Positions 1-63,766 of a stretch of DNA of 64,000 nt are shown here, piece after piece. The notes beneath the pieces were generated by a model that made no database searches, was not told the origin of the DNA, and saw nothing but the letters and a program-made list of their open reading frames with translations. Both the position numbers and the translations under genes were made by a program. Origin of the DNA: Chloranthus sessilifolius (Eukaryota > Streptophyta > Magnoliopsida > Chloranthales > Chloranthaceae). The stretch is from NCBI GenBank assembly GCA_021018995.1, contig CM037597.1, positions 33,234,936 through 33,298,935 of the forward strand. Direction: 5' to 3'. The stretch's first letter is position 1. Each line of letters starts with the position of its first letter.

Positions 1-1098
1 CTTGAGCTGTCTAGAATCGTACGCGATAGCTTTCTTATGCTGGTTGAGGACACAACCCAAACCACTGTAAGATGCATCACTGTATATAGCAAAACCTCCT
101 CTGCCAGAAGGTATAGCTAGCACTGGTGCTGTAGTCAAATGCGTCTTGAGTTCTTGGAAACTCTTCTCACACTGATCAGTCCAATCAAACTTAGCATTTT
201 TATTTGTAAGCTGAGTAAGCGGACTTGATAGTTTGGAGAACCATTCTACAAATCGTCTGTAGTATCGTGCCAAGCCAAGGAAGCTACGAACCTCAGTTAC
301 CGTTCTTGGTTATTCCCAGTTCACTACTGCTTCAATTTTCATCGGATCAACTGCTATACCCTTAGCAGAGACAATATGACCCAAGAAACTGACTTGGTCA
401 AGCCAAAACTCACACTTACTGAGCATTGCATATAGTTTGTGATCTCTGAGGGTTTGTAGAGCCACGTGCAGATGTCCTTCATGTTCCTCCTTTGTCTTGG
501 AATAGACAAGAATGTCATCTACAAAAACGACCACAAACTTATCCAAGTGTGGTTTAAACACTCGGTTCATTAGATCCATAAAAGACGCAGGTGCGTTCGT
601 CAATCCAAATGGCATAAGTAAAAACTCATAGTGCCCATATCTGGTTCTTAACACTGTCTTCTTGATATCCTCTGCTTTGACTCTCAACTGGTGATAACCA
701 GATTGCAAGTCAATCTTCGAAAAGAACCTCACTCGTTGTAACTGATCAAAGAGATCATCAATCCTTGGAAGCGGGTAAAGATTCTTAATCGTCAACTTGT
801 TCAACTGTCGGTAGTCGATGCACAGGTGCATCGAACCATCCTTCTTCTTAAAAAATAGTACTGGTGCTCCCTAAGGAGACACACTAGGTCGAATGAACCC
901 TTTGTCAAGCAGTTCTTGCAGTTGCTCATTTAATTCTTTCAATTCTGCAGGAGACATCCAATACGAAGTTTTAGACACTGACTCAGTACCCGAAACTAAA
1001 TTTATCGCAAATTCAATCTCCCTAGTAGGTGGTAGTCCTGGTAAATCCTCGGGAAACACTTCAGGGTACTCACACACAACATGAATATCTGATATCAC
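1..1098 (-). pseudogene. E1 reverse transcriptase and start of RNase H
   Basis: Fossil pol segment. In sense order it shows the protease-RT linker ([13 protein letters not shown] near 1060), the RT palm motifs [11 protein letters not shown] (near 800), MPFGLTNAP (near 600) and the catalytic FVDDILVYS block (near 510), and then the start of RNase H with ASYSGLG near 90. This is the enzyme that copies the element RNA and degrades the template strand. The level of similarity to the RT of E5 (61077-61700) is obvious by eye, which places both in the same chromovirus lineage. The remainder lies beyond the window edge. Confidence 0.9.
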
Positions 1099-4471: not shown

Positions 4472-5023
4472 TGATTGATCGATCAATGTCCTTGCTTGAT
4501 CGATCAATCCCACTCCTTGTTCGATCAATGACCTCATTGATCGATCAACCTCTCAAATAACTCACAGGTGACAAAGGAAAATTGATCGATCAATATCCTT
4601 GATTGATCGATTAATCTTCAACCTTGATCGATCAATGCTTCATTTGATCGATCAATAGCCTCATGTTCTTCATATTTAATAGAGGAAAATTGATCGATCA
4701 ACACCTTAGTTTGATTGATCAATCCATCCCATTGATCAATCAATCTTCCCATTGATCGATCAATCAATTAATACTCAAATTTCCCTCTTCCTGTTCTCAC
4801 ACTATTCTTATACAATTTGATTGATCAATGTCCTCATTGATCGATCATTTTAGTCTTTGATCGATCACCTCACTGTGATCGATTAATGCCCATCGGGCAT
4901 TGAACTTCTAGAAAACTACTCTACTGTTCCCATTAACTCTTTATACGAATTGATTGATCAATTCCTAACCTTGATTGATCAATCCCGATATTGATCAATC
5001 AATTCCCTGCCTTGATCGATCAA
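4472..5023. repeat. E1 LTR array of TTGATCGATCAA palindromes
   Basis: About twenty exact or near copies of (A)TTGATCGATCAA(T) are scattered over 550 bp, separated by unrelated spacers of roughly 10-60 bp, so this is not a simple tandem repeat. It lies about 470 nt downstream of the LTR TATA box in sense direction, inside what should be the transcribed leader. Other families in this window have different palindromes at the same relative place. Confidence 0.88.
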
Positions 5024-14287: not shown

Positions 14288-14431
14288 AAATCGAACGTTC
14301 GAATTTGAAATCGAACGATCCATTTGAGAATCGATTGATTGATTCTGGCACAACAGAGGTGCATCGATTATGGAATTGACAGTTCGATTTTAAAATCGAA
14401 CGATCGATTTGGGAAATCGATCGATCGAATT
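14288..14431. repeat. E2 5' LTR palindrome array (TCGAACGTTCGA / TCGAACGATCGA type)
   Basis: A run of ATCGAACGTTCGAAT, ATCGAACGATC and ATCGATCGATCGAAT words, each a near-perfect palindrome built on TCGA, separated by short unrelated spacers. It is repeated in the 3' LTR (24279-24426) and, in related form, in the spacer upstream of the extra coding region (21073-21257). Confidence 0.85.
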
Positions 14432-19100: not shown

Positions 19101-20400
19101 CCGAAAATGCAAATGTCGTAGCAAATGAACTGAACCAAAAGTCTTCTGCTCTTTTGTCACACCTCATCACTAGAGTTCATAGATGGCAGTTACTTGAAGA
19201 TATGGCATTATGCAGCACTAGGTTTGACGTTAAAGGTTCGGGGGCACTGATGGCTACTACTGTGATTCGTCTATACTATTAGAGAACATCCGAAATCTAT
19301 AGATGAATGATGATGATCTCATGGCTATCAGACAAGATGTGATTAGTGGAAGTAGGATGAATTTCTCCATCAGAGAAGACGATACATTGTTGTTTCGAGA
19401 TTGAGTATGCGTACCAACCAATTCTGAGCTTCAGGACACCATTTTAGAATAGACACACAAATCTATGTACGCCATTCATCCTGGAAGTACTAAGATGTAT
19501 CAGGATCTAAAAAAGAGTTTCTAGTGGAGTGGTTTGAAGAGAGACGTGGTTGAGTACGTGTCGAGATGTTTGGTATGTCAGTAGTTCAAGATTGATCACT
19601 GAAACCCATCTGGGTTATTACACCCATTACCTGTTCTAGAGTGGAAATGTGAAGCCATTTCCATGGACTTCATTCTGAGGTTGCGGAGGACATTAAGGAA
19701 ACACAATGCCATCTGGGTCATTTATGATAGGCTAACTAAATTTGCTCATTTCCTCCTATACAACACGACGTATGTGTCCAGTAAACTCGCAGAGTTGTAC
19801 CTCAAGGAGATAGTCAGGTTGCGTGGTATACCGATCAATATTGTATCCAATAGATACACACTGTACACATCTCAGTTTTGACAATAATTTCAGGAAGGAA
19901 TGGATTCTAGGCTTGATTTCAGCTCAACATTTCACCCTCAGACTGATGGACAAACTAAGCAGGTGAACCAAATCATTGAGGACATGATATTTTATATTGG
20001 ATTTCCAAGGGTCATGGGACCAACACTTACCTCTGATTGAGTTCGCCTACTATAATAGCTACCAGGCTAGCATCGACATGGCTCCCTAGGAAGCCTTATA
20101 TAGTAGGAGATGCAGGTCTCCTCTTAATTAGGAGGAGGTTGGCAAGAAACTTATTTTAGGCCCTAAGATCGTGGAAAGTATGACCGAAATAGTTCGGTTC
20201 ATCCGTGAGTGGTTGCGAGTTGCTCAAAGTTGTCAAAAGAGATACGCCGATCTTAAAAGGAAACATGTTGAGTTTAAGCTTGGAGACAATGTATTTATCA
20301 GAATCTCACCTACAAAAGACATGATGTGTTTCAACAAGCGTCAGAAGCTGAGTCCACATTATGTTGGGCCTTTTGAGATATTGGGTCGAGTCGGTTAAGT
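19101..20400 (+). pseudogene. E2 integrase
   Basis: Fossil integrase. An H/C-type zinc-binding N-terminus lies near 19470-19600, the catalytic core near 19660-20140 (MDFILRL, then the SKLAELYLKEIVRLRG block at 19780), and a C-terminal segment with a GPY/F-like HYVGPFEILGRVG motif near 20360. Integrase inserts the DNA copy into chromosomal DNA. Confidence 0.85.
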
Positions 20401-20697
20401 CACCTACCGAGTAGCTTTATCTCCGTCACTATCTAGCATGCACAATATATTTCACATATCAATGTTGTGGAGGTATATTAAAGACCCGAATCATGTATTA
20501 GACTATCAGACCATTGAACTTCAGGAAGGTCTAACATTGGTCGAGGAGCCAGTACATATATTGGACCGCAAAGAACAGATCTTACGGAGCAAGCGAATTC
20601 CTTTAGTTCTTGTGAAGTGGTGAAATTACTTTTTCGAGGAAGCCACTTGGGAATGTGAGGTCGAAATCTGCAAGCAATTTCCACATCTCTTTGAGTG
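20401..20697 (+). pseudogene. E2 integrase tail with chromodomain
   Basis: HNIFHISMLWRYIKDPNHVL is the conserved segment ahead of plant chromovirus chromodomains. It is followed by PVHILDRKEQILRSKRIPLV and an EEATWECE-like end, the usual chromodomain pattern of aromatic and acidic residues. Chromodomains of this lineage are thought to direct insertion to modified chromatin. The near-identical layout in E5 (58754-59140) supports the call. Confidence 0.88.
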
Positions 20698-21072: not shown

Positions 21073-21257
21073 AATCAAACGTTCGAATTCAAAGTCGAAC
21101 ATTCAAACTCTAAAATCAAATGATCGATATTGAAATCGATCGATTGACTTATTGGGCTTTTGAGTATAAATATGAAGAAAATCGAACATTCAATTATAGA
21201 AATCGAACGCTCAAATCTTAAATTGAATGTTCGATATCATAAATCGAATGATCGACT
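21073..21257. repeat. E2 second palindrome array, upstream of the extra coding region
   Basis: Copies of AAACGTTCGAATT, GTCGAACATTC, ATCGATCGATT, AATCGAACATTC, ATCGAACGCTC and ATCGAATGATCGA, the same motif family as in the E2 LTR arrays, about 240-420 bp before the extra coding region. Confidence 0.82.
21165..21172 (+). promoter_or_regulatory. Candidate TATA box upstream of the E2 extra coding region
   Basis: TATAAATA lies within the second palindrome array, about 330 bp before the likely start of the extra coding region. Position and sequence suit a promoter. There is no other evidence. Confidence 0.35.
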
Positions 21258-21494: not shown

Positions 21495-22752
21495 AATGGG
21501 ATCGAAGAAGCAACCTGCAATTTACTTCGAAGCGGCCCGCGTTGAAGGTCAGTTCTTCTAAACAACCAACACCGCCACCACCTCCATGTGAACAACCATA
21601 CGAATGGTGAACTGCAAAGGATTATGAGACTGAGTGGTTTTTTGATCCTGAACTTTTTTACCAACAAGCGACCACCGCATGGGCGCTTGATTATTTAGAA
21701 AAAATAGGGTTGGGAACCTTACTTCGACCTTTCAATGAATATTTTTACCCTCGGTTGGCACCGTTGTTTTATCAACATATGTGCCGAGGTGACGAAAAGA
21801 AAATTTATACAAAATCGATGATTTAGATTATGAGTTTGACATGGACGACATCACCGAGGAGATGTTATGCCCTTTGAAATGCTCACCGAACATGGGTTTG
21901 TTGGAACCAAACCCTAAACCAATTGAATTTCAAGATGTCATCACTGAGATGGCCCAAGGACGACATGGTTCAAGGCAATCCATAACTAGAACTCAATTGC
22001 CGGAAACCATGTGGATTTTAGATGCTATTTTTAAAAGTAACCTATATCCAGTGGGACACAAATCGGAAAGGAGGGGCACCATTCAGCAGACTCAATTTTC
22101 TGCGTTCAAAGAAAAATGGTTTAATGCTCCATAATTGGTACTTAAGGGCATCATATCAGCTCGTAAAGATATGTCGAAAGGGAGGAAGGCCCCAACAAAA
22201 GAAATGCCCTATGCTTGCCTGATTTCCCTTATGATTGAGAATTACGATGGCGGTGATGACTATGAGATTGACGATAATGAACCAAAGTCCACCACCAATG
22301 TAAAGAATTATAAGTTGAAAGATTGGAAAAGAACTATAAACAGTTATTGAAAGCTCCCCAAGAATCAGCTGGTCAAGAAGCTGCTAAATAAGTCGCTACG
22401 GAGCCAGAACCAATCACACCAGCAGACCAGCCACAGCAGCCTGCCCCTGTTCAGATGCCACCACCTACGTAGCCACATGAGCCACAGGGTGATGTACTCA
22501 CCTTATCAGACACCAGGCAAATGATGACGATGAGCCAGCAGATTCATATGTTTACTCAGCATACGACTACGATGAGTAACAAGTTGGAGGTTCATGAGGG
22601 CATGTTGACATATCTGATGCAGCACACATACCCTACAGATTATGCTACCTACATGGCGGATATGCATGCCGCCACGACCCGTGCTTCTACTTCTAGAGTA
22701 GGGGATGCAGTAGATCAGGATGCTGGACCAGCTGAAGATTGGGAGGATTAGG
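21495..22752 (+). pseudogene. E2 extra coding region, putative plant transposon protein-like
   Basis: A sense-strand coding region lying after the chromodomain and before the 3' LTR, where standard chromoviruses have none. It begins with a Lys-rich ATG segment (GSKKQPA). It then shows FYPRLAPLFYQHM near 21755, PIEFQDVITEMAQGR near 21920, ETMWILDAIFKSNLYPVGH near 22010, a KWFNAP end, a MPYACLISLMIENY segment near 22210, and a Gln/Met-rich C-terminus that may form a coiled coil (22520-22640). The same ordered blocks appear in E5 (56453-57802). The pattern FYxxL, then WxxxxxxxNLxPxxH, then LISxM resembles the Pfam 'putative plant transposon protein' family (PF20167, from memory). Function unknown. 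It is broken in a few places. Confidence 0.7.
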
Positions 22753-23597: not shown

Positions 23598-25332
23598 TGT
23601 AATATCCCAAAAATTATGAAACCGAATACGGCCACCTCGGTGTGCGTGTTCAGGCGAGTCGCATAATGAGACCTTAAATTTTGGAATAATTAAATTCAAA
23701 GAAGTTTATTTGTGAAAATATAAATTATGTCTTTTTGACCAATAATTTGAAACCCATACACCGACTCTTGTATGCGTGTCCAACACCGAATCTAAGCTTA
23801 ATTTCAAGTGGATAGTACTTTAAAGTAAATATCATAGATATTTGTGGCGTATTTTTCTTTAAAAGGAGAGGAGGGTGAAGAGCAAAACTCTCACTATTTT
23901 CTCTTGTATGAACCAAAATTTGGAGTTTTGTTAATTGTTTTGCTTGAAGATATTGAGTGAGAGTAGTGTAGTTTGTATGTGAGTCAAACATATTGAATGC
24001 ATTATTTGCATGATCAAGAGGTGAGGTGAAATCTATGCTACGTGGAGCTTATTCGGGGATCTGCAGGCTTGAGGCTTCGCAAGATCCAATCCGACACCTT
24101 GTGTGAGAATCATTGGAAGCCGCCGAGAATCTACTGTGAGAGGTAGGCTCTCAATGCCGTCTTGTTATTGAATTTTACGTAAATTAGATTTGTTAGGATG
24201 TTAAAATAGCAAGATTTTAGTATGGGCTAGGAGAAAGACAACTCAAGAAAGAAAATCTCGAAGGCTACAGAAACTGTCAAAATCGAACTTTCAAATTCAA
24301 AATCGAACGTTTGAATATGAAATTGAACAATCGATTTCAGAATCGATCGATCGAATCTGGCACAACAGAGGTGCATCGATTATGGAATTGACTGTTCGAT
24401 TTTGAAATCGAACGATCGATCGATTTCCCCTGTTTCTGGCTTTTTGTGTTTTTCTATAGAGAGCCTCTGGAGAAGTTTAATCTGTCAATTTTCAATGCTA
24501 TTAACACATAATATGGTGTTATCTAAATCTAGGGTACGTGTGGTGGGAAACCTTTGGTGAGGACATTTGGATAGCTTGGATTGGATCCCAATCTAGGTAG
24601 GGGAACCTTGATATTAATTGCATTTTTGTCTAAATTAATGTGAACAACTTGCTGCAATCATTATGAAATAAGATAATATGAAATTGTTTTGATCATAAAC
24701 TCTGAATTTGTTTTGAATCTGCCATGATTTTTATTAGCATGAACTCTGAGCTATGAATTTTTAATAACTCTTGAATTTGCATATGAATCCTGAAACTCTG
24801 AATCCTGAATCTGAAACTGTATTAAAATACAAAGAATTATATAATTAACATCTGCACTTGATTTAAGGTTCATTAAAATGAAACCCTAAATTCCATGAAC
24901 TGTATTGACGGTAAATCCGCCTAGCTCAAGTTTCCCTCATAACGTAGGGGCTTCTTGCTTCTCCTGAAAAAGGGTTCATTGAACGACGATGGTTAGTAGG
25001 GTTCCCCGTTGGTATTATTCTTGCACTCATGATATAGTAACTTGAGAGAAAACTTTAAGTTATGATTTAAGGCATTTAATATAGGAGTATGCATGAATCA
25101 AAATTCGAAACTATATGAACTCTGGACTTGTTTGATTTCCATTCATAACACATCATCTGATTTTAGAATTTGAATTTAGTAAATGAATCTGTTTGGAATA
25201 CCTGTTTTGAAAACATATATGCTTTGATTTCAGTCTTTGTAACCATATTGTTCTGATAAAAATGTAATAGAATTTGAATTTCTTCCACTGAGATTAGACT
25301 GTTAGCTCACCCCGACTATACGTCACAGGTGT
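23598..25332 (+). repeat. E2 3' LTR, interrupted
   Basis: Begins TGTAATATCCC and follows the 5' LTR closely, through its own promoter region, palindrome array (24279-24426), GGTAGGGGAACC block (24596) and GACTATACGTCACAGGTG, at which point LTR E3 begins. Bases 25328-25332 (GGTGT) should be the left target duplication for E3. The remaining LTR tail is not seen in this window. Confidence 0.9.
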
Positions 25333-26090: not shown

Positions 26091-26278
26091 GAATTCGAAC
26101 ATTCGAATCCAAATTCGAAGTTCGAAATCAAATTCGAACAATCAAAAAATGGAATCGAAGTTCAATTTTGGCTCTATTCTGTCAAGTTCGATTTCTGAGG
26201 AAATCGAACAGTCGATTTGAAAATCGAAGTTCGAATTCAAAAATTGACTGTTTAATTTGAAAATTGAAGTTCGATTTG
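26091..26278. repeat. E3 LTR palindrome array (TTCGAA type)
   Basis: About eleven copies of ATTCGAAC, TTCGAAGTTCGAA, AATCGAAGTTCGA and AATCGAACAGTCGA words, spaced by a few to 20 bases. Same relative place as the arrays in E1, E2, E4 and E5. Confidence 0.82.
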
Positions 26279-42011: not shown

Positions 42012-42025
42012 TGTAATAACCAGAA
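41880..42025 (+). other. E4 stacked polypurine tract / LTR-start modules
   Basis: A TTTTCGAGGCC phrase, AAGGTGGGAAG and TGTAATGACCC (LTR-like start at 41911) are followed only 101 bp later by a second AAGGTGGGAAGAA and TGTAATAACC (start at 42012). A third start, TGTAACGTCCC, lies at 42691. The second copy has the same three at 48328, 48434 (TGAAATAACC) and 49112. Confidence 0.8.
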
Positions 42026-45411: not shown

Positions 45412-45749
45412 GTTAGTATAAGAGCTTAGGCTTTAGGTCTTATGGGAGTCTCATATCCATAACTCTAAGTGTAGGAATATGGCATTAGGTTTTGTCTAAA
45501 CATTGACGATGAGTGTTAGAGTTCAGTCAGACCATTGGGACCATCCATTAATTGAAACCTTTGTTTCATTTTAACAAATCGATATCGCACCTCGCAAAGG
45601 AAAAAAAACCGTACGCACTGGAGATAATGATCACGAGCAAACTGGGCAGCTGCTGGAAACTATGGTCAATACGATGGCCTAGCAGACGACATTGCTTGCA
45701 GCTATATTATTATGAGACACTGCACACCCCTCTCCACCTGCACCGATTG

Positions 45750-46260
45750 AGTTATGCTCACGGTGTGGGAAGCATCACAAGACAGAGATGTGTAGATGGA
45801 CTACAGGTGCATGTTTTAGGGTTGGACAAATTGGACATCTGATAAGAGACTGCCCCTAATTAGGGAGAGAGGCGACAACATTGGCAACAACTTAAGATCC
45901 CTCTCTATCCATGGTTTAGGATCGTGTCCTTGTCATCTCTGCATGGCATGCTCAGGCAGCCAGAGGAGTTGTCCAAGTATCCTCTCACTCTTTAGTTTCA
46001 GCAACAGTTAGAGCATCAACAACATGGCAAGCCTCCTTACGTATCTCCTCATTGACACGGATTGATATGTGCACAATATGAGGAAAGAAGCATAGGACTA
46101 AGGAGTGTAGGCATGCCTAAGGCACATGCTTCAGATGTGGTTAGGTGGGACATTTGGTGAAGGAGTGCCCAAAGCCGGATCAAAGGAATATGGCATCAAC
46201 ATCTCTTCCGGGACCATCATCACCACACGACGCCCAACCTCTGAATGAAGTCATCCAAGG
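45750..46260 (+). pseudogene. E4 gag nucleocapsid remnants, two zinc-knuckle modules
   Basis: Two modules of the chromovirus nucleocapsid type lie about 300 bp apart. The first (about 45755-45860) has the C-x2-C-GK-x-H-K-T-x-x-CR pattern. The second (about 46065-46180) has the KKHRT and HLVKECP words. The second array copy has both as well (about 52440-52520 and 52720-52830). E1, E2 and E5 show a single module. This is all that remains of coding sequence in E4. Confidence 0.7.
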
Positions 46261-46909
46261 TATAATCCATTATTGATTGTCAAGTCTTTACCTTATTCTC
46301 AATTGATGAATGTCCTTGGAAGTTTTATGCTGTTGTGATAATTTAACGTCATCATATATACCCTAGTTGAAACATAGACATGAAACCTGGATACCTTACA
46401 CCTCTATCAGAGTGAAGGCATATGTTGAAACAAGCCCACGTTATAGTGGATCGAGTTCAACAGGACATACAAGTGAGAGTTAGGATAAAGAAAATTTAAG
46501 AATTTAAGGAATAATGATGATTAGTAAAGTACGGTTGAGAGATTAGAGTAGGGAAATAAGGATTTATTAAGGAAGAACCTATGTCAGCTCGAGAAATTTG
46601 AGATGATTTGAACTCATGACATGTTAGAGGAGTTAGAACTCATGCACCTTCATCATAGGTCACCTTCTTCTCTCTCTTAAATAAGAACGAGACACCCTTA
46701 GTTATTCTTAGACTACACTGTCATCTTATAAGGTCTTGGAGTTCAATGCAATATCTAAGAATTAAAGTCTAACTCACTCTTATAAATACTGAATTGATAT
46801 CAGTACTTTTCATGTGTTCCTATGATTGATTTGTTTGTTTGTTTGAATTATTGTTTGAAATATTACTAGTAATTAGTTATATATGATAAGAAAAAAGAAT
46901 AAGATACAC

Positions 46910-47105
46910 CACATGACTTTTAAGCCTTCTTCTTGGTGGGGTCTATTTTACGGTCACCTGGAACTTGGATTGTAGGCATCCAGGTATGGCTGCAAATCCT
47001 CTATGGTAGTATGAGATGCCATACGAATTATATTCAAGTTACTACGGAACCCGCCCTTTAGAAAGCGTGGTTTGGGAAGCCTATCGCATCGTGACCCATT
47101 CTAGT
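46910..47105 (+). other. 3' untranslated block conserved between E4 and E2
   Basis: GACTTTTAAGC, GGAACTTGGATTGTAGGCAT, CTCCTCTATGGTAGTATGAG, TTCAAGTTACTACGGA and GAAGCCTATCGCA occur in the same order and spacing as in E2 (23262-23460), although the LTRs of the two families differ strongly. Such retention in a non-coding tract suggests function or recombination. Confidence 0.7.
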
Positions 47106-49555
47106 TAAGATTACGAAAAGATTGAATGTTAATATGCTAAGCTACGAGATATTAAGAAAGTGGTAACCTAAGCCATGAACCGAATAAGGATATAATATGT
47201 TAAGGCATGCTGTGAAGAGCAGCTGAATATTAATTAAGTTTCTACATGTGCCATACCTTACCAGCCACCATAAGGGTACAAAGACGGGTCTTAAGGACAA
47301 TCTGAAGCGACAATGTCTCGACATAAGGGGACACTAAAATTTTTATGATGCGCACAACCTCATTGGGCTAAATGTTGGTTTATGATATGATATGATGGTT
47401 AGGTGGTGATCTATATATTGATCTCGCGTGTTAGGCTAGAGAAGCGTCCTTGGCATAGGTCGTATACGAAAATTAATAGGATACAAAGTATATTGTGTAG
47501 GTGTATGGAGCAATAATAAGACTTTCGATATACCAAGTTAGTTTAGATGATAAGACCAATAGAAAAATGATAAACAATGACGTAAGTTTGACGGTTCCAT
47601 TAAGGCCTTAATGATTTGTTGAATAGATCCTTAATTCGGCTTTAATTGTATGAATCAGTGTTCAATCATGGATTTAACTACGTAATATAGATTTTCGTGA
47701 AATCTTTTTAGACGTGAATTCTTTTTTGATAACTTTGTTGCTAACTGCTTGTAGTTAGATGGTTGATGTGGATATTGAGGACTGCCGCAGGAATGTGTTT
47801 TCAATGATAAATCACCAGAAGTTATCTTGGTGAGTAGACATACATTTCCTGTTTTAAGTCTCACCGACAATACATTGTGGTGATAGTATACGGACAGTAA
47901 TGGTTAACGTTGACAGTTAATGGCAGTTGTGCGCTCCTCTTTGGTAAAATTCGCGTTGTTTGGATCAATGGATAGGATTGTTAGCTCATGGGTTGAATTT
48001 GTTGTGATGGTAATAGATTCTATTGTTTAGCCAATTGCCCTCGTTATTGGGTTTGGTTTAGGCCTTCAGAATTTCAAAGATTATGAGACAGTAGGTTGGT
48101 TGGTTGTGGGTATATTTCACCACTCGCTGTGGATGGTTCTTCTTATGATCTCAATGGTTAGGAATTTTGAGCATAAGTGAAATCGATACCTTTTTTTCAA
48201 GGCATCCCGATATGTTATTACGATTCCCTTCGACATGTTTGCTTGTGACAACGGCCACTTACGATGTTCGACATACCTTCAGTCACGTAGTGAATTTTCG
48301 AGGCGAAAAATTTTTTAAGGTGGAAAGTGTAATGACCCGGATCTTTTGAGCATTGAAGATTACAATGTATTCGTGCCTCCTTGAATAGTGTATGTGCATT
48401 TTCGAGGACGAAATTTTTTTAAGGTGGGAAGAATGAAATAACCAGAAATTTTTGAAAACGTTGAATCGTTGACCTTTGAAGAGAATGCAACCTATTGATT
48501 GTTTTGATCCAAGTCAAACATTTGACCTATGTAACGTGGTCTCGAAACCCCACGAGTTGTGATTGGAGTACACGCCGAACACACTAAATCCCAACTCATA
48601 CCGTATGTGGAGCGTATATGTATTTGTACATATTGCACATGAACCGAACCCAATGCTTGAACTCGGGCCCTACCTCAAATTTTAACTCGAATCAAGAGTG
48701 GACCCAAGCACAATATCCCAACCTGTCATAAGACTTAGATGAAGAACCATACACCAACCCGCAGTGTGCGTGCTCAACTTCAACGAGTAGACTTAAGTTG
48801 AGTGGATAAGGTTTGACAAATGAATATCACTTGGTTTGATAATTATTTTGCCTCGTTTTGCTTATAGGAACGGTGTTACTGCTTAACACCGTGACCAAGA
48901 TAAAATATAAATGGTGTGTAGCTTCTCACATAAGCTGTGATGGGCTCTATACCATGTGATCGAAAATCACAAACAAACTGTCCGATGGTAAGGCGATGGT
49001 CTCGAGATCCGATGTACAAAAGATGGGAACTCATGTGAGTCGAGGCAGTGTCTAGAACTTGAGTTTTTCACCGATAATTTGCTTGGCGCAAATAATGGGA
49101 CCCAAGCTATTTGTAACGTTCTGAATATTTTCAAACTTGAATGCATCCGACCATGTTTATGTGTTCGGTATGACAACGCCGCCGCCTTAGATTTGTAAGA
49201 ATATATTAGGTGTGGAGAAGTGAGTTTAGGATCTTATTGGATCTTAATTTTTGCCCTAAATGAAGATCCATACATTGACTTGTGGTGTGCCGGCTTAACA
49301 CCAAATTGAACCCCAAAATTTGTGCATAGAATTTGAGCCATTACCCACAGGCCAATTGCGCAAGCCTAGTGCAACACGATGTGCACGTGTGCAAAATTAG
49401 AAATAATTTTCTAAATGAAACGTTGACATGGTATTATAAGGATTAAGGTTAGTTGGACGGATTGAATAGGGTCAATTAATTAGGGTGACTAGTTTGATTG
49501 ACTAATTAGGCTGACTCTTGGCCTCAAATAAAACCCTTGATGATGTCGCAAATAC

Positions 49556-49697
49556 CCAAATTTTGTGTACTAAAGTTACACTAAAACCAAACCCAAATGA
49601 TGTGGATAGAATTTGAAACTAAATATCCAAATTTTGTGTACTAAAGTTACATTGAAACCAAACCCAAATGATGTGGATAGAATTTGAAACTAAATAT
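49556..49697 (+). repeat. 71-bp tandem duplication in E4 LTR B
   Basis: Two adjacent units start at 49556 and 49627 (CCAAATTTTGTGTACTAAAG), with few differences. They lie directly upstream of the dyad-TATA promoter. Copy A has a single, shorter version. Confidence 0.88.
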
Positions 49698-50301
49698 CAA
49701 AGATATTTAGTTGGGTTCATTTGGTTATAAGATGGGGGAGATAGCTTAAAGGCTAACCTATCTTGCAAATTTGAGAGAAGAGAGAGAACATGAGCTAAAT
49801 GTGAGCTTACATCCACTAGAACCCTTCTTGAGATTTCGATCGTGAGATCACAATCACATCGCAGTAGCGGCACTCTTCGCAATGCATGTGGCACTGGCAT
49901 CGCTAGAGTTTCACTGTTTATAAATTCTAAGCCATTCAAACCCTCTTTCTTTAAAAACCTCATTTTCAAGAAACGTTCCGTCCCACGATCGATTCCGCAC
50001 TTGGAAGAGGTTAAGATAAAAGCGTAAGGATGAACGACGTCATCTTGAGTTCATTGTGATCAATCGCTGTAGAATCGCCGTAGAAATTTGAAGGTTTTGC
50101 TTCGAAACCCTCGTTCGGTAACACTTCAAATAAACCTCGGATTCGATCGGTGACAGGTACAATCGAATTGATTTTTAAATGATTCTAAATGTTCTAACAT
50201 GTATGTGTATGTGTGTGTATGATTTGTTAAGAATCATTAAAGATTTGGGTGAAATTTGAGGGAAAATAGACCAAGGAAGACGCCCGAAGGCTTCTGAACT
50301 C

Positions 50302-50525
50302 GTCAAAATTTGAACCATCAAATTTGGTATTCAATCGATCAAATTTGGTGTTCAATCGATCAAATTGGAATTCGATCGATCAAACTGTCATATTCGATCG
50401 ATCAAATTGGAATTCAATTGATCAAACTATTATTCGATCGATCAAATTTAAGAAATGATCGATCGAATTGATTAATACACCTATAGAACAAAAGGCCCAA
50501 TGAAATTCGATCGATCAAATTTGAT
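50302..50525. repeat. E4 LTR B palindrome array
   Basis: About ten ATTCGATCGATCAAA-type words, better preserved than in copy A in the middle of the array. Confidence 0.85.
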
Positions 50526-51959
50526 TGAATGTGCCGACATAGCTTTGGGATTAGGGCCAAAAATCTTTATTCCAAACTCTGATTGGCTCGATTCTTATGG
50601 TGTTGGAAAGAGAACAAGGAGCTCTATAACTTTTATGAATTAACTAACTAAAAAATCAAATGTTTTGAGGGTTAAAATGAAGTGGGATGTTAGGTCAAAT
50701 TCTGGGTTAGCACAAACTTGCCCATTTCCGCCTCGATTTTGAGAGAACACTTAAAATTATCAAAGTTATTGAAATTAGAATTAGTCCATAATATGTCAAC
50801 GTATATGTGATGTAGTTTGGAAATGGAAGTCGTCGATAAGGACTTAGGTATTGCTTTGAGCAGCTACGAACTTAAAGTAGGGGAAATTTAATCTAAATTG
50901 CATTTATTCTGATTTCATGGACTATTAAGACTTGTATTCTGACACATGGATTCTGATTACTATTTTAAAGTATCCCTTGCATATAAATGAAAGATCTGTC
51001 ATTCCCGATTTGTTCTAACACTTGATTCTTTATATTATGTACCATGCAGATGATTTAAAGTTCATGTGACGAACCCCACCGGCGCAGCGAGGTATCCGTG
51101 ACCGGCACGGAGGGATAGCAGTGTATTTGTTGTGTAGTTGCCTGACACAAGTTGGACTCATAACACAAAGGCCTGTTGCAATTCCTGCATATTATTCATT
51201 GAACGACTATGGTCGGGGTTTCCCATCGGTCAACATCTGGCTACCACGTGCTATATACACAGGAGTTATTTAAGTTAAATTTAAGTCATTTAAAACAAAT
51301 GAAAATGCATCTGCTTCCTGATATTCTTCATCTGATTTCGGTTAGTGATACTAGCATCTATTTTATGATTTGTCTATTCTAAATATCTACTCTAGAATCA
51401 GCTATTTTGATATATGTTATAAAAACCATACTCTACAGTAAAAATGTAATATAAATTGAGATTCTTCTATTGAGCTTAGACTGCTAGCTCACCCCGACTA
51501 TACGTCACAGGTACAAGTCCTGACCAGAACCTTAGGCTTAGAGAAAACCCTGAGTCTGTGCCGAAGAGGGAAGCAGATCTTGCACAGTGGGGTTTCTATC
51601 CTTAGTTCATTGGTAATGGGACTGGGTGTATAATAAATTTTGCTACACTTTAAATTTGGTATATTTTGAGATATTTCTTTTGTGTGAGACTAGTATCATC
51701 ACTATTTAGGCGACAGTCGGCCGTCACCGGTGGTTGGTTGTTTTTATATTCTCCTTTTGTCCTAAGTATAAATAGGAACTATGTGTTGTTGAGTGTTATA
51801 TCTGCTTAATCTCTGCAAATTGTGGTGGTACCAAGTAAGTATTCTGTATTCAGATTGTGTTCTACGATCTGGCGGTTCAGATTTTCCCATTTTGGTTTGA
51901 AGTTGAAAAAGAAAAATTATATCTCTAAAAATTATGTTGGGAAAATCCGAGTTGTCACA

Positions 51960-53232
51960 GTTGGTATCCGAGCATAGGCTTTAGGTCTTATGGGAGACTC
52001 AAGGCCATAACTCTAAGTGTAGGAATATGACATTAAGTTTTGTCTGAACATTAACGATGAGTGTTAGAGTTCTATCAGACCATCAGTCTGCTGGGCCATC
52101 GTATTGACCATTATTTCCAGTAGCTGCCTAGTTTACTCACGATCATTATCTCCAGTACATACGGCTTTCGCTCTTTTGCGAGGTGCATGTTACAATTAAC
52201 TGATGGTCCCGATGGTCTGCTAGAACTCTAACACTCATCGTTAATGTTCAGACATAACCTTTTGCGAGGTGTTAGAGTTCTATTAGACCATCGGGACCAT
52301 CAGTTATGGGAGATAATGATCGTGAGTAAACTATGCAGCCATTGGAAATAATGGTCAACACGATGGCCCAGCAGACCGCATTGCTTACGGCTATATTATT
52401 ACGAGAAATTGAACACACCTCTCCATATGCACCGATTGAGTCATGCTCACGCTGTGGGAAGCAGCACAAGACAGAGATGTGTAGATGGACTATAGGTGCG
52501 TGTTTTAGGTGTGGACAAATTGGAGAGAGGCGACAACATCGGCAACAACTCAAGATCCCTCTCAGTCCATTGTTCAGGATCGTGTCCTTGCCATCTCTAC
52601 ATGACATGCACAGGCGGCCAGAGGAGTTGTGCAAGTATCCGCTCACTCTTTAGCTTCTGCAGTAGCTAGAGCATCAGCAGTACGGAAATCCTTACGTATC
52701 TCGTCATTAACACCGATTAATATATGCGGAAGATGCAGAAAGAAGCATAGGACTGAGGAGTGTAGGCACGCCTTGGGCCCATGCTTCAGATTTGGTTAGG
52801 TGGGACATCTGGTGAAGGAGTGCCTAGAGCCGGATCAAAGGAATATGGTATCAACATCTATTCCGGGACCATCCTCACCACTCGACGCCCAACAACCGAA
52901 TGAAGTCATCCAAGGTATAAAATTGCCAAGAATTTACCATATTCTCAATTGATGAATGTCCTTGGAAGTTTTATGTTATTATGAAATTTAACGTCATCAT
53001 ATATACCCTAGTTGAAACGTAGACATGAAACCTGGATACCTTACACCTGTATCAGAGTCATGGCATATGTTGAAACAAGGCCACACTATAGTGGATCGAG
53101 TTCAACTGGACATACAAGCAAGAGTTAGGATTGAGAACTTTGAAGAATTTAAGGAATAATGATGATTAGTAAAGTACGATTGAGAGATTAGAATAGGGAC
53201 ATTAGGATTTATTGAGGAAGAACCTATGTCAG
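51960..53232 (+). other. E4 last internal region, cut by E5
   Basis: Begins with a primer-site sequence (TGGTATCCGAGC, 51962) and repeats the zinc-knuckle region of the second internal copy. It stops at ACCTATGTCAG, the point matched by 46580-46590 in the previous copy, where the E5 LTR starts. Bases 53228-53232 (GTCAG) are the expected left target duplication of E5. Confidence 0.8.
52041..52376. repeat. Local inverted duplication in E4 last internal region
   Basis: 52041-52084 pairs with 52211-52254 (43 of 44 bases), and 52086-52153 pairs with 52309-52376 (64 of 68). TAACTGATGGTCCC (52197-52210) pairs with GGGACCATCAGTTA (52293-52306), and TTTTGCGAGGTG is repeated directly at 52174 and 52260. 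Copy A (about 45500-45690) has the simple, uninverted order. It looks like a fold-back or strand-switch event. Confidence 0.88.
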
Positions 53233-54797: not shown

Positions 54798-54966
54798 TTG
54801 CCTCGGCAATGCTCAAGTAATTGCCGTGGCAAGTCCTTCAGCTGGCTTTGTTGCCGCGACAACCCTATAAGTGTTGCCACGGCAAGCCCTTCAGCTGGCT
54901 TTGTTGCCGCGGCAACCCTTTAAAGTTACCGCGGCAAGCCTGTAGATTTTTGGCTTGCCGAGGTGC
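54798..54966. repeat. E5 LTR array of TTGCCGCGGCAA palindromes
   Basis: Copies at 54798 (TTGCCTCGGCAA), 54821 (TTGCCGTGGCAA), 54851 (TTGCCGCGACAA), 54874 (TTGCCACGGCAA), 54904 (perfect) and 54926 (TTACCGCGGCAA), plus a partial one at 54955. Spacers include a repeated CCTTCAGCTGGCTTTG. The array lies about 630 nt after the TATA box in sense, the same place as the arrays of other families but with an unrelated palindrome. Confidence 0.92.
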
Positions 54967-56452: not shown

Positions 56453-57802
56453 TTAGAAGTTACCAGGCTGGGGGTTTGGCTGTTGTTGGCCTGCAGAGGA
56501 AGGTCCAACTTCTTGTTGTTGGAAGTCTTGCTGGAACTCCGGGACGAATAATGTTGCATTTCGAGTGTATTGGGTGGCGTAGTTGCGCGCCCGCCCAATG
56601 TAAGGGTTTGCAGCAGTTTGGAATGTATGTTCCATCATGATATTAGTTGCTTCTTCAATATAATTGATGCGTTGATGGAGCATGTAATGGTTTCGATATA
56701 AATTATCGAATTGGAGGAGGGTTTGCTCATGGTTTTCATGCATGAGCTGGACAAGATCCGCATTTGTAAAAGTCCCTTGTGTCAAAGGGATCGATTCAGT
56801 TTGGGATTGTGGTTGAGGATGAATGGAGGTATCTTGGGTTGGAACAGAAGGGATTTCTTGTTGGGCTTGTGGGGGATGACGAATTCGTTTAGCTTGGTGG
56901 TTAATTACCGCTTGAAAGGAGCGTTGATACACATTTCTCCAAATGGCAAGGCTAAAGACCCTCATATTGTTAGTGCGGACCTCTTCACCCACAGGGATTT
57001 GATAGGGAACTAAATTGACACTATCGAAGTGTCCTTCTAACATGCGAGAGATCAATCGGGGGTAGGGGCAGGAGGGCATAGAACTTGAAACGTTGCTTTG
57101 TAAGTGTTCATTGGCGTACTTAATACCCTCCTAGACTACCACAGGGGCATTTACCCATCGTCCTTCATGGACGGCATAGAGATCATGTAAGAGAGAATCT
57201 CGGCGCTCTCTTTCATGCTGCATGGGATATAGATTACACCGAAATGCATAGTCCAAGAACCACATTTTCTGTCGTAATTGGCTGCGACGAATTGCAAAGC
57301 TGCGATCGAAAGCGGTCTGTCCATCAGTCATCTTAGTGATGATATGATGGAATTTCACATCCCGCTACCTGGGCATTTGTAGTCCTGTGGTCACGTCAAA
57401 ATTAGGACTATAGTCCATAGCTTGAGCTATGTGACGTATATTGAAGAAAAATTTTCTATCATCAATTTTAGTCTCTAATTGACCAACAGTTGGGGAGACT
57501 ATCAAGTTTTGGTAGAACAACCGGACTAAACGAGGATAAAATTGATTGTGAAATGGCCGATACAAGGCGCCTAACTACGCCTGTTCCATGTATCGAATAG
57601 ACCATGCGGTCTGGTCATTTGGGGTTAAGAGTCGATCATCAATGATCCACTCAGGTTCCATGGCTTTCGCAGCCCACCATGGGATGGGCTGTTCGTGCTC
57701 AATGGGTGGATTGATTGGTTTGTGGAAAGGAGCTGGGCCTTTGCCCTTAGCTTTAGCTGAGGCCTTTGAAGGTTTAGAGGCTCCAACCTTTTTAGGAGGC
57801 AT
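56453..57802 (-). pseudogene. E5 extra coding region, putative plant transposon protein-like
   Basis: A sense-strand coding region between chromodomain and 3' LTR, homologous to that of E2. In sense order: Lys/Ala/Pro-rich start PPKKVGASKPSKASAKAKGK (57800), WIIDDRLL, then FYPRLVRLFYQNL (57530), RKFFFNIRHIAQAMDY (57450), KFHHIITKMTDGQ (57350), KMWFLDYAFRCNLYPMQHER (57260), a RWVNAP end, PYPRLISRMLEGHF (57060), and a His/Gln-rich C-terminus with a possible coiled coil (NLYRNHYMLHQRINYIEEA, near 56660). The N-terminal Lys-rich part could bind nucleic acid. The blocks resemble PF20167 as I remember it. Not a known part of Tekay elements. Broken in a few places. An env-like role cannot be supported: no signal peptide or membrane segment is seen. 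Confidence 0.75.
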
Positions 57803-58753
57803 TTTACTATCAAAAAGACAAGGAAGAACAATGGAGTTAGAGATTTGGTTGTTACCTCACAAAGGACCAAAAATCTGCCCGAAATCATAACAAAATCAGG
57901 AAATAGAGAGGTTCTTGGAGTAGATCAGTGACATGCAGCGGCTGTGGACGTGATTTGGAGGTGTGTATGCATGGACATTTGCTTGGAAGGTTGAAGAAAA
58001 CCGAAATATGCACCTTTTTTAACAGATAAAACAAATGAGAATACTTGGATGTGCGTTTCGGACCCAGCAAATCTTAACAGAGTTGCCGCGGCAACACTTA
58101 AGGCTTGCCGTGGAAACTGACTTGCCACGGCCAGCACTAGTCCTTGCCGCGGCAAGGTAGTTCAGGTGTTGGCTGGCCTGGATTTCTGGGCTCCTGATAT
58201 GTGGTGTCAGATTTTTTTGGTACTAGATGTTCTCAACAGATACAAGATCTATATAAAAATATAGTTTAATCTTTTTGATGTATTTTTCTCTATTAAAAAT
58301 TTTTATTTTCATGAAATTTTGACCCATTTTACAATATAGCTTATAAAAATATTATAAATATATTATATTTGGCCATCAATGGACCCGAAATAATCACTTG
58401 TGATATGTGGCAGTAATTTGGGATACACCTGTGCTTATGTGTCGCTGCTTCAAACTTTTAAAATATTTTATTATTTAGTAAAATTATGGTGAATAGTTTT
58501 ATAATTTGATTTGTATAATAATTTTAATGCCAAATCAAATTCTAATGCTAATTCAAATTTTGTTATTTCAATTTATTTGTATCAAGATCCATAAGGTCCA
58601 TAAAATTTACTTAATATATTATATCGGATATAATTTCTTGTTTACTGGTGCAGGGTGCCTTTACAAACTATTTACAATAACATTATAATCTAAGCAATTA
58701 AAATTTATTTGACTAAGTGTAACTATAGTGTACGTGGATTTTAAATACGGACC
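57803..58753 (-). other. E5 spacer between chromodomain and extra coding region
   Basis: Non-coding. From the sense side: AT-rich sequence (58753-58230), the second TTGCCGCGGCAA array (58155-58083), then about 280 bp of pyrimidine-richer leader-like sequence up to the ATG at 57802. Layout parallels the spacer of E2. Confidence 0.7.
58083..58155. repeat. E5 second TTGCCGCGGCAA array, upstream of the extra coding region
   Basis: Copies at 58083 (perfect), 58105 (TTGCCGTGGAAA), 58122 (TTGCCACGGCCA) and 58144 (perfect), spacing 17-22 bp. The same palindrome as in the E5 LTR (54798-54966), found nowhere else in the window. Confidence 0.92.
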
Positions 58754-59140
58754 TTATGTAAATAATGGAGGGTACTGAGCACGAATATCAGCTTCGTGCT
58801 CCCAGGTAGCTTCATGCGATTCATGATTCTTCCATTGAATCAAAACGAGTGGAATTCGTTTTGTTCTCAGAATTTGATCTCTGCGGTCGAAAATCTGACC
58901 TGGTTCTTCGGTCACCGTTAGATCTTCCTGGATGTCCAACGGTTGATAATCCAACACATGCGGCGGATCGCTGACGTACTTTCTCAGCATCGATACGTGA
59001 ACTACGTCATGAATGCCTGCCAGGTGCGGACATAACGCGAGTCGATACACTACTTCTACTCTACCTAGTATAGGGAATGGTCCAATGTAACGAGGATTCA
59101 ACTTGCCTCGTTTCCCAAACCGCATCACGCCTTTTGTCAA
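58754..59140 (-). pseudogene. E5 integrase C-terminus and chromodomain
   Basis: A continuous 128-codon stretch: GPY/F-type NPRYIGPFPILGRVE, then HDVVHVSMLRKYVSDPPHVL, then the chromodomain with EEPGQIFDRRDQILRTKRIP, VLIQWKNHESHEATWEHE and a short tail. The aromatic and acidic pattern is that of plant chromovirus chromodomains, which are thought to bind modified histones and bias insertion. Confidence 0.92.
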
Positions 59141-60370
59141 AGAGATTTTGATAAAGACGTGTTCGCCAATCTGAAAATCATTTCATTAGACTGATAATGA
59201 GCTTTTGGTCAATTTATAGAAGACTTATCAATGTTAATCATTACCAGAAAATCAACACTGGTTCTTTTGAGATCAGCGTAACACTTTTGTCGACTCTGAG
59301 CACTCTTCAATCGTTCCCGAATAACATGAACAACTGCATTGGTGCTTTCTATCAGATCAGGGCCTAAAATCAACAGCTCTCCAGCTTCTTCCCAGTTAAT
59401 CTGAGATTTACATCGGCGTCCATACAGTGCTTCGAACGATGCCATACCGATGCTTGACTGGAAACTGTTATTGTATGCGAATTCGATTAGGGGTAAGTGT
59501 TTATCCCATGATCCTTGAAAATCGAGCATACAGGCCCTTAACATATCCTCAATCACTTGGTTCACCCTTTTTGTCTGCCCGTCAATCTGATGATGAAATG
59601 TTGTACTGAAGTCTAACTTGGAACCCATACCTTCTTGGAAACTTTGCCAAAATCGCGAAGTGTATAAAGGATCGCGATCTGACACGATGCTTACAGGTAT
59701 CCCATGTAATCGTACAATCTCCCTCAGATAAACTTCATCTAATTTGGATATTGTATATCGTGTACTATAGGGTAAAAAATACGCCGATTTGGTGAGACAA
59801 TCGACAATCACCCAAATGGCATTGTAACCCTTCTGAGTACGGGGCAAACCGAGAATGAAATCCATGGAAATATTTTCCCATTTCCATTCTGGAATAGGTA
59901 ATGGCTATAGTAGACCAGCAGGATGTTTGTGCTCGACCTTGACTTGCTGACAAGTCAAACACTTTGAAACATATTCTGCTACATCACGTTTTAGACCATT
60001 CCACCAGAACATCTGTTTAAGATCCTGGTACATCTTCGTACTACCAGAGTGAATAACATATGCTGACTTGTGAGCTTCTTCGAGGATTTCTTGACATAAG
60101 GCATGATCATCAGGTACACATACTCGTCCTCGAAATAATAACGACCCATCGTCCTTTATTGTGAATTCTGGCTGTAGCCCACTTTGTACCCCTTGTTGGA
60201 TGGAAATAAGCTTTGCATCTTGCATCTGGAGCTTTCTGATCCTATTAAATAGTGGAGCTCGGATCATTACTGTAGCAAGTAAACCTCCAATTGACGTTGC
60301 TTGCAGAGTAGCACTCGATGACACAATGTCATTGAGTAGTTTCCATCTTTGTAATCGTGTCACAAGATGA
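59141..60370 (-). pseudogene. E5 integrase: zinc-binding and catalytic core
   Basis: Sense order: zinc-binding region about 60080-59930 (HKSAYVIHSGSTKMYQDLKQ, CLTCQQVKVEHKHPAG), then the core from 59865 with DFILGLPRTQKGYNAIW, VDCLTKSAYFL, VSDRDPLYTSRFWQSF, WDKHLPLIEFAYNNSF and EALYGRRCKSQINW. It inserts the DNA copy into the chromosome. Confidence 0.9.
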
Positions 60371-60980: not shown

Positions 60981-61720
60981 TACAGGATCAACCGTGATAC
61001 CTACTTCAGAGATAATATGCCCTAGAAAACTGACTTGATTCAACTAGAAGTCGCATTTACTAAATTTAGCATATAACTATGAATCTCTCAGTGTTTGTAA
61101 TGTCAAACGTAGATGATCTTCATGCTCTATCTTTGTCTTGGAATAAATGAGTATATCGTCTATGAATACTACGATACACAGATCAAGGTAAGGTTTGAAG
61201 ACTCTATTCATCAAGTCCATAAAAGCAGCTGGTGCGTTGGTCAACCCAAAGGGCATGACAAGAAACTCGTAATGACCATAACGTGTTCGGAAAGCTGTCT
61301 TCGAAATATCTTCAGCTTTCACCTTCATCTGGTGATAACCTGATCGTAGGTCAATTTTTGAAAAGAACCATGCTCCTTGTAACTGAAAAAAGAGATCGTC
61401 GATTCGAGGAAGCGGATATCTATTCTTGATCGTCAGTTTATTGAGTTGACGATAATCAATGCAGAGGCGCATTGAACCGTCCTTCTTTTTCATAAATAAC
61501 ACCGGTGCACCCCATGGAGACACACTCGGTCTGATAAAGCCTTTGTCAAGAAGCTCTTGTAATTGCTCCTTAAGCTCTTTCAACTCTGCCGACGCCATTC
61601 TGCATGGTGCGTTCGATACTGGATCGGTACCTGGAGCTAATTCAATAGCAAATTCTACTTCCCTATCAGGTGGTAGTCTTGGCAGCTCATCAGGAAACAC
61701 ATCTAAAAATTCATAAATGA
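60981..61720 (-). pseudogene. E5 reverse transcriptase
   Basis: Sense order: [19 protein letters not shown] linker, [71 protein letters not shown] and the catalytic [13 protein letters not shown] block near 61150. Close to the E1 RT in sequence. Confidence 0.92.
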
Positions 61721-62240
61721 TTGGTACTTCAGAAAGTGACATTTTATTCACTTTCTGTTCATCACTTTGTATGAAAGCAATATACCCTTGAGCACCTTCA
61801 TCAAGTAATTGTCGTGCTCGAATTGCGGATATCAGCGAAAGATTAGTTGACGATATGCCATAAAATTTAGCTGATCTCTTCTTTTGCGAACGAAAAGAGA
61901 CAATCTTCTTGCGATAGTCAACGTTCGCATGGTGAGTGAACAACCAATCCATGCCATGGATCACATCATATCCTTGCATCGGTAACAAGATCAAATCAGC
62001 TACTGCTTCATATCCCCAGTCATCCTTGATTGAAACCATAATCGACTGGTAAACTTTATCAGTCGTGAGGGATTGTCCAGTCGGAAGGGTAACGTCAAGA
62101 ATAAAGTAGAGAGGTTCTAGAGTACCTCCTATCTTCTTTAATTTTTCAGCAAATTGGGGTGTGACAAACGAGTGTGTAGATCCAGGATCTATCAAGACTC
62201 GTGCGTTATAACACAGATAATCATCTTTTGGATATAATTG
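61721..62240 (-). pseudogene. E5 aspartic protease region
   Basis: [18 protein letters not shown] near 62180 and [20 protein letters not shown] near 61950, the chromovirus retropepsin pattern, in one open stretch with RT. It processes the polyprotein. Confidence 0.9.
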
Positions 62241-62383
62241 TAATATACCTAAAGCATATAGACTAATGTTAGTTATATTACCTATTTATCTCAAATATTT
62301 AAAATAATAAATATGTCAATCTAGGAATTTAGCATGTAATGTTCATAGTTAACTATATGCACCTTCTCTATCTAAAATAATAA

Positions 62384-62960
62384 TTAATTGCAAACTTTAA
62401 TATAAAAGTAATGGACAGCCATACCTTGAATGATGTCATGGCTAGTTCTCGCATCTGTTGCAGTGACAGCATAAGCTCGGCCTTGTACCATGGGCCATGC
62501 CGATCGTAAAACTGGTCTTGCCTTTGTCGCTATTCCAACCATTTCTGGACATTCTCGGATCTGATGTCCCATTTTGCCATATCGAAAACATGCACCAGAA
62601 GCTTTACGACACTCATCGGTCTTGTGTGCCTTCCCACATTTCCCACAAATTTCTTTGGAGGCAACTGATGACGCTGTATAAGATCCCATGCGAGAACTTG
62701 TCGGCCGTACTTGAGAAAACCCAGATGTACTTTGAGCCACTGGTGAATAAGACTGATTCGGTACACGTGGAATCCTTGATGGTGCTGAGAATACCGATGG
62801 ATTGTAAGCCCGTGCATATGCTCCCGCAGCCTGTTGAAATGTTGTCTATCCTTGGAATCGTGGTCGCTTATTAATTTGGCCCGCACTATAGGATTGTGGA
62901 GCTTTTCTGGCCTTCTACTTTTCGTCTCTCCTTTTGAACATGGTGTCCACATCGGTTTCC
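62384..62960 (-). pseudogene. E5 gag nucleocapsid region
   Basis: A zinc-knuckle module ICGKCGKAHKTDECR ... GACFRYGKMGHQIRECP at about 62560-62660, preceded by a Ser/Gln-rich linker. It binds the element RNA. Confidence 0.88.
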
Positions 62961-63766
62961 GTGACCAATGCCAATTTCATCACATGGGCATAAGTCGTTG
63001 CCTGAAATAATGAAATGCGCTCTTTGATCAGAGGTTTCAAACCCCTCTCAAACTTTTGGGTTTTCATCAGCTCGGTGGCTACTAACAGCGGTGCAAAGCG
63101 AGAGAGACGAGTAAATTCTGATTCATATTCTCTAACTATCATCTGCCCTTGTACCAATGTTGCAAACTGTACCTCGAGCTTATACCTCTCAAGCGCTGGA
63201 AAATATTTTTCATTAAAGGTCTCAATAAATTCTGCCCATGTTGATGGTACTCCAGGCATCCGTGTTCTTTCGACAGACTGCCACCATGGCTCTGCCTCAC
63301 TCTCTAATTTGTACGCTGCCCAACTCACTTTTTCTTCCTCGGTACAAGTGACTCGATGCAGTACTTTCTCAATCTGTGTTAACCACTTCTCAGCCTCCAT
63401 TGGGTCATGCTGACTATAGAAACTTCGTGGTCGAAGTCGAATAAAGTCCGTAAAGCCCTCGGGACGTCGAACAGCAAGCATGGCCATAGTGTTGACCATG
63501 GTCTCCATCAACTGCGGATGGTGTCCCGCATTTTGTTCCATACCATGAACACTTCCCATCAGTGGAGTATGTATCACTGGCGAAGTTTGCTCTGGCGGAG
63601 GATGCTCTGCAACATTCTCCATTGTCGTTCGACATTCAACCAGATGGGCATTCTCACCACTCCTCGAAGCAATGTCATGCTCGTGCCCAGCTACTGGAAT
63701 AGTATTCGGTCCAGTGCGATGAGGTAACAGTGGTCTACCCCTGCCTCTTCCACGATGCAGAGGCAT
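62915..63766 (-). pseudogene. E5 gag capsid region
   Basis: A 283-codon open stretch starting at the first ATG (63766) with PLHRGRGRGRPLLPHR. It continues with the capsid words RPRSFYSQHDPMEAEKWLTQ, EEKVSWAAYKLESEAEPWW, WAEFIETFNEKYFPALE, REYESEFTRLSRFAPLL and RGLKPLIKERISL, the Retrotrans_gag pattern. Confidence 0.92.

Follow-up and report, generated by a model that had tools for sequence, protein, structure and literature searches.

What maintains one palindrome at two separate places of the same retrotransposon is the question raised by this locus. The window, that is the whole 64-kb stretch of Chloranthus sessilifolius DNA analysed here, contains at its right end an LTR retrotransposon, E5, with a palindrome array in its LTR and another upstream of an extra coding region. 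The initial annotation had noticed this layout, with an unrelated palindrome, also in a second element, E2, and had offered two explanations: the array is the cognate site of the extra protein, or it is a unit duplicated from the LTR to drive a second transcript. We prefer the first. The arrays are putative operator sites at which the element's own extra protein would act, both at the LTR and at its own gene; we give this reading, which is built on sequence comparison, a probability of about 0.48. The repeated units, their two positions, the use of one motif per family, the preferred spacing, the conservation of the units and the homology of the extra proteins are supported directly.

Palindrome arrays in three elements of the window

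With up to two mismatches allowed, TTGCCGCGGCAA has 10 sites in the 64-kb window, six in the E5 LTR and four in the E5 spacer, compared with a mean of 1.0 and a maximum of 2 in 10 first-order Markov windows. The LTR array (54798..54966, minus strand) is composed of six such units, starting at 54798, 54821, 54851, 54874, 54904 and 54926, and a partial one. The spacer array (58083..58155, minus strand) has four units (58083, 58105, 58122 and 58144) and ends 281 bp before the ATG of the extra frame at 57802, so the placement first described for E5, in the LTR and again about 280 bp 5' of the extra region, is upheld. The extra coding region (56453..57802, minus strand) is in sense orientation in the interval between pol and the 3' LTR and contains three in-frame stops. 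One piece of it weakly matches PF20167 (14.5 bits, cut-off 45), and the region is 52% identical over 336 aa to an open-frame relative, L044. By profile scores, the end of pol (58757..59182, minus strand) encodes a Tf2-1-like SH3 domain (SH3_Tf2-1, 69.3 bits) and a chromodomain (Chromo, 22.1 bits, under its cut-off of 25.1). Protease (RVP_2) and reverse transcriptase (RVT_1) of the Ty3/gypsy type are at 61080..62285 (minus strand), and an open frame of 283 aa at 62915..63766 (minus strand) is presumably gag-like.

E2 occupies 13.6-25 kb of the window on the plus strand. Arrays are located in its 5' LTR (14291..14428, TCGAACGTTCGA / TCGATCGATCGA type), its spacer (21075..21255) and its 3' LTR (24283..24425), all on the plus strand. 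Fourteen of the 16 TCGAACGTTCGA sites in the window fall in these three places (4, 6 and 4, respectively), against a Markov mean of 1.3 and a maximum of 3, in agreement with the earlier report of arrays in both LTRs and 5' of the extra region. The other two sites belong to an LTR-like fragment at about 26.1-26.2 kb. The extra coding region of E2 (21497..22748, plus strand) is broken, and its pieces align to the extra protein of the E5 family; a stretch at 20270..20692 (plus strand) shows 57% identity over 141 aa to the SH3/chromodomain piece of E5. On the basis of RVT_1 and the SH3/chromodomain stretch, E5 and E2 are classified as Ty3/gypsy chromoviruses, for which we take Tekay to be the lineage label. 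The fragment at 26095-26644, which bears a palindrome array at 26095..26278 (no strand assigned), is 76% like the E2 LTR over 131 bases and has palindrome variants of its own.

E1, which was not named in the initial annotation, has the same layout with the motif TTGATCGATCAA. It is located on the minus strand at the left end of the window and runs on into the locus L089. Its LTR array (4475..5023, minus strand) has 20 TTGATCGATCAA units within two mismatches, and its reverse transcriptase (RVT_1) is at 313..870 (minus strand). The spacer array, the 3' LTR array and the extra gene are all left of the window in L089, where 14 TTGATCGATCAA sites are found in the spacer before the extra gene and six in the 3' LTR stretch. 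The protease-reverse transcriptase frames of E1 and E5 are 62% identical over 391 aa.

Palindromy alone was rejected as evidence. An untargeted cluster scan finds palindrome clusters in Markov sequence too, and the evidence therefore lies in the recurrence of one and the same word.

Recurrence of the layout in the host genome

In the host genome (2.17 Gb), the layout was found again in further copia and gypsy families with other palindromes, namely ACGGACGTCCGT, TCGATTAATCGA and GTGGTTAACCAC-like ones. Family members with the extra gene and no spacer array had been named at the outset as the observation that would count against the proposal. A search of the genome with PF20167 gave 13,855 candidates, of which 150 were scored and 30 loci fetched, and ACGGACGTCCGT (ACGGACG) arrays were present in 29 of the 30. 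The exception, L006, has a deletion that fuses a copia reverse transcriptase (RVT_2, 207 bits) to the extra gene, and the copia assignment of the ACGGACG family rests on this one fused copy. The deletion in L006 also removes the spacer array. L006 was left out of the 29 ACGGACG loci in the motif table, and L001-L005 were skipped in the unbiased scan. A second search started from an open-frame relative of E5 and yielded 46,084 candidates (139 scored, 30 loci fetched). At least two TTGCCGCGGCAA units were found 5' of the extra gene in 27 of these 30 E5-family loci, and in all but one of the 29 loci that had a match, the last unit precedes the aligned start by 281-334 bp. The best palindrome in the unbiased scan was TTGCCGCGGCAA in 21 loci and another one in nine; the same scan showed CCTATCGATAGG-like repeats farther upstream and no clear TTGCCGCGGCAA array in L045 and L046.

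Seventeen further upstream stretches of PF20167 relatives were scanned for arrays. ACGGACG sites were found in eight of them (L068 has only two), TCGATTAATCGA / TCGATGCATCGA in two (L079 and L082), GCCTCGCGAGGC-like sites near or above shuffle level in three (L074, L075 and L077) and GTGGTTAACCAC in one (L072), and no clear array was found in L070, L076 and L078. Among three E2 relatives, L084 has TCGAACGTTCGA, and no clear array was found in L083 and L085. Three relatives of the E2 protein (L095-L097) have AATCGA-NNN-TCGATT-like units, mostly 19-20 bp apart; in E2-related proteins with 56-59% identity, the TCGA half-site is kept and the centre differs.

The LTR and spacer motifs of an element agree wherever both places were read, and they differ between families; agreement is poorest in the GTGGTTAACCAC-like family, that of L070. 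In a table of motifs by region, the own-family motif is predominant or exclusive in 23 of 24 stretches from seven families; the stretches are hand-chosen representatives, and fam74 has no LTR stretch. The one stretch without its own motif is the L070 spacer, from which GTGGTTAACCAC within two mismatches is absent and which has GGTTGACC-like sites by eye; the downstream stretch of L070, L087, has GTGGTTAACCAC. Cross-matches between families are few and confined to TCGA-containing motifs. Second arrays 3' of the extra gene were also found in the ACGGACG family (one site in L010, four in L028) and in the TCGATTAATCGA family (four and three sites at two places of L086), and they were called LTR from that position. 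In the TCGATTAATCGA family, a 39-aa pol piece of L093 matches RT_RNaseH_2 with 38.9 bits and an 85-aa piece has no match; this family may belong to the Athila lineage.

Spacing and conservation of the units

The units have a preferred spacing. Among neighbour distances of 12-60 bp in seven families, 75 of 101 are 20-22 bp. Because members of one family are not independent observations, families are the appropriate unit to count, and 20-22 bp is the commonest distance in six of the seven; fam74 has no clear period. Relatives of E2 have a spacing of 19-20 bp, and the E5 motif is also spaced by about 30 bp and by 17 bp. Genome-wide, pairs of ACGGACGTCCGT with 3-30 bp between them number 1921 and pairs of TTGCCGCGGCAA 895, against 0 for the reversed control in each case. 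Fifty places of each were counted by hand; they are the first ones on contig C1 and include copies of the same family. The 50 plus-strand places listed for ACGGACGTCCGT have distances of 20 bp (18 times), 21 (11), 22 (4), 23 (4), 40 (12) and 33 (once). Of the 50 pairs listed for TTGCCGCGGCAA, 33 are short, with distances of 21 (2), 22 (27), 23 (3) and 24 bp (1), and 17 are long, with 29 (2), 30 (14) and 31 bp (1). A distance of 21 bp corresponds to two helical turns; 30 bp is about three turns and no multiple of 21.

This periodicity also bears on a role in RNA. Retroviral dimerisation sites are palindromic, and the arrays could in principle be dimerisation or packaging signals. Since a spacing of about two helical turns would be a feature of DNA, and the second array, being remote from the 5' leader, would have no obvious role in packaging, we consider an RNA function very improbable.

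In comparisons between copies, exact palindromes are conserved beyond matched control words, with 0.866 kept against 0.664 in the ACGGACG family (11 chosen spacers) and 0.926 against 0.784 in the E5 family (21 sequences, from 20 of the 30 loci and the window copy). The units inside arrays are 76-93% alike, a figure inflated by the fact that units were picked by similarity, whereas the sequences between units are 30-62% alike, compared with 26-45% in shuffles. Most of the likeness inside arrays thus sits in the palindromes. The inter-unit likeness is above shuffles in five of nine arrays (p 0.025 or less), which indicates some trace of tandem copying, and CpG is present in most of the palindromes. 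Both of these would be in line with passively expanded tandem repeats or CpG-rich silencing targets that have no specific binding protein. The gap between unit and inter-unit likeness and the conservation of exact units argue against such an origin, and we hold it to be quite improbable.

The identical motif at both places might also mean that a piece of the LTR promoter was copied once into the spacer, where it drives a second transcript with no role of the extra protein. When the palindromes were masked, however, spacer and LTR showed no significant similarity in E1, E2 and E5 (p 0.17, 0.09 and 0.81), although the flanks of an ancient copy could have decayed. This second explanation of the initial annotation accordingly found no support in the masked flanks, and a single copying event appears improbable; its other part, a promoter function, is plausible from TATA-like sequences, as follows.

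Promoter-like features

A TATA-like sequence is found close 3' of the array in nine of the 15 ACGGACG spacers shown, and also after the arrays of L074, L079, L072 and L087, all by eye and with no null; in E1, E2 and E5, by eye, no clear one was seen. A promoter role of the arrays is plausible. The arrays might then be promoter elements for host transcription factors, recruited family by family, that make up an internal promoter of the LTR-like kind for the extra gene. Some of the palindromes resemble sites of plant factors, and the TATA-like sequences fit such a role. For Sireviruses, regulatory boxes have been proposed together with an internal promoter for env (PMC2829016). Against host factors, unrelated palindromes have the spacing of about 21 bp and the two positions in common, which would need repeated independent recruitment, and their common partner is a homologous extra gene. 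We therefore regard recruitment of host factors as unlikely.

The extra proteins

PF20167 (Transposase_32) is matched by the extra proteins of five families, three of them above the curated threshold of 45 bits (L010, 66.8; L031, 63.1; L090, 53.8; L092, 54.5) and two, the E5 family and L091, under it (L044, 31.3; L043, 29.7; L061, 21.2; L091, 29.2). The E1 piece, two E2 pieces and three other E5 pieces gave no match in the Pfam search; the pieces of E1 and E2 do align with the extra protein of the E5 family. Between the E1 and E2 proteins the identity is 43% over 134 aa, and it is 33% and 34%, respectively, to E5. In 88 common columns the identity is 36 for E1 and E2, 28-33 for E1 and the E5 family and 28-34 for E2 and the E5 family. 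In a tree of the extra proteins, E1 and E2 group together with 82% bootstrap support; the reverse transcriptase tree has no resolved branching. The motifs of E1 and E2 also have TCGATCGA-type cores in common, and motif and extra protein may change together, but the difference in the common columns is small and the trees were set aside as evidence.

The mean hydropathy over 19 residues never exceeds 1.53 in six open-frame proteins from four families, two of them partial, which mildly argues against an envelope protein. A C-terminal stretch of E1 reaches 2.20; coding probably ends before it because a splice-like GT, seen by eye, precedes the stretch. The Sire and E5-family proteins have basic N-termini, with +5 to +7 in 45 residues. 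A comparison of the ACGGACG-family protein with other genomes yielded 2908 candidates, of which none reached E 0.001, and no relative of it was found in viral contigs. DUF1985 gave no match among the extra proteins that were profile-searched with hmmscan, a program whose filters discard the majority of matches above roughly 0.1.

By eye, splice-like signals were seen in L036, L089 and L095, either in the 5' leader or close to the 3' end of the extra gene. The extra gene may have its own spliced transcript. In L072, a PF20167-like gene directly follows an LTR-like stretch and a tRNA-primer-like site, by eye, and this is possibly a reduced element.

Proposed mechanism and known systems

Homologous extra genes occur in copia and gypsy elements together with private palindromes at the same two positions and with a similar spacing, and the simplest explanation is recognition of these palindromes by the family of extra proteins. 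The paired private palindromes suggest that each extra protein would read its own DNA address. The cognate-site proposal withstood the checks in the sampled families, namely the presence of the array beside the extra gene and the agreement of motifs, and binding itself is what we infer from them. In the proposed mechanism, the extra gene, a sense frame in the interval between pol and the 3' LTR that is related to PF20167, would encode a DNA-binding protein, and each palindrome would probably be bound by a dimer of it. Because the units are about two helical turns apart, neighbouring dimers would sit on one face of the helix. The LTR sites would control the genomic RNA, and the spacer sites would control the extra gene itself in a feedback loop. 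The likeliest effect would be activation or protection from silencing, as with VANC for VANDAL, a direction taken by analogy.

The initial annotation knew of no such description. A closely similar arrangement was, in fact, described in 2010 for Sireviruses, which carry element-specific palindromes in many copies in the LTR and 5' of the extra gene (PMC2829016). Of 13 Sireviruses with these boxes, linker copies are present in 9/9 with an env-like gene and in 0/4 without it, and regulation and an internal promoter were suggested (PMC2829016). The four env-less Sireviruses keep the LTR boxes, so the link between box and gene is not a strict one (PMC2829016). Palindromes in the LTR and before a sense extra gene are what E1, E2, E5 and the ACGGACG and TCGATTAATCGA families share with them, the LTR of the last two being assigned by position. 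Within Ty1/copia, the boxes were described as specific to Sireviruses, all but one of which have a CGG-CCG core (PMC2829016). This core is in ACGGACGTCCGT, and the ACGGACG family is probably of the Sirevirus kind. In contrast, E1, E2 and E5 are of the Ty3/gypsy type by RVT_1, and their motifs, like that of the TCGATTAATCGA family, have no CGG-CCG core. Neither helical spacing nor recognition by the element's own protein is described for Sireviruses in the available part of PMC2829016. We found no report of paired arrays in Ty3/gypsy elements in the literature searched, which covered few subscription journals.

The VANC proteins of Arabidopsis VANDAL elements are a parallel in function, in that a transposon accessory protein recognises arrayed motifs in the non-coding DNA of its own element and evolves together with its target (PMC5735166); further VANC-target co-evolution, unpublished, is mentioned from a lecture (PMC12859917). 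However, VANDALs are DNA transposons, VANC proteins have DUF1985 and DUF287, and the motif of VANC21, YAGTATTAY, forms arrays with a single orientation (PMC5735166), whereas the extra proteins here match PF20167 and gave no DUF1985 match. The sense extra frame of sunflower Athila elements matches PF20167 like the extra genes here and has a predicted nuclear signal, whereas that of sunflower Tekay has a 5' position and resembles no known domain (PMC11728184); the word "palindrome" does not occur in that text on Athila and Tekay. The extra frame of Retand TRP28 likewise lies between pol and the 3' LTR, DNA binding has been suggested for it, and about half have tandem repeats in this region, but its gene is antisense, with another domain and in another lineage (PMC11963269). 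Sense extra frames have been treated as env-like (PMC7264820), and a possible influence of element-encoded factors on the methylation of LTR elements themselves has been suggested (PMC12844716).

We tentatively extend the operator reading, at rather less than even odds, to the env-like sense gene of many copia and gypsy elements: it would be a fast-diversifying, sequence-specific DNA-binding regulator with private operators in the LTR and before its own gene, a counterpart of VANC from a different protein family. If the extra genes do encode such self-recognising regulators, this would explain their persistence and the large differences in LTR motifs from family to family, and it would show how abundant elements might selectively oppose silencing. 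The sequence of each family would then predict its own binding site.

Other repeats of the window were also seen. Another element has long open frames that overlap tandem repeats with units of 39 and 24 bp (31023-31311). At 40641-53232, a stretch of about 6.4 kb is present twice side by side; the two copies, compared piece by piece, are 83-92% identical, and each has a TCGATCGATCAA-type array (43762-43983 and 50317-50525).
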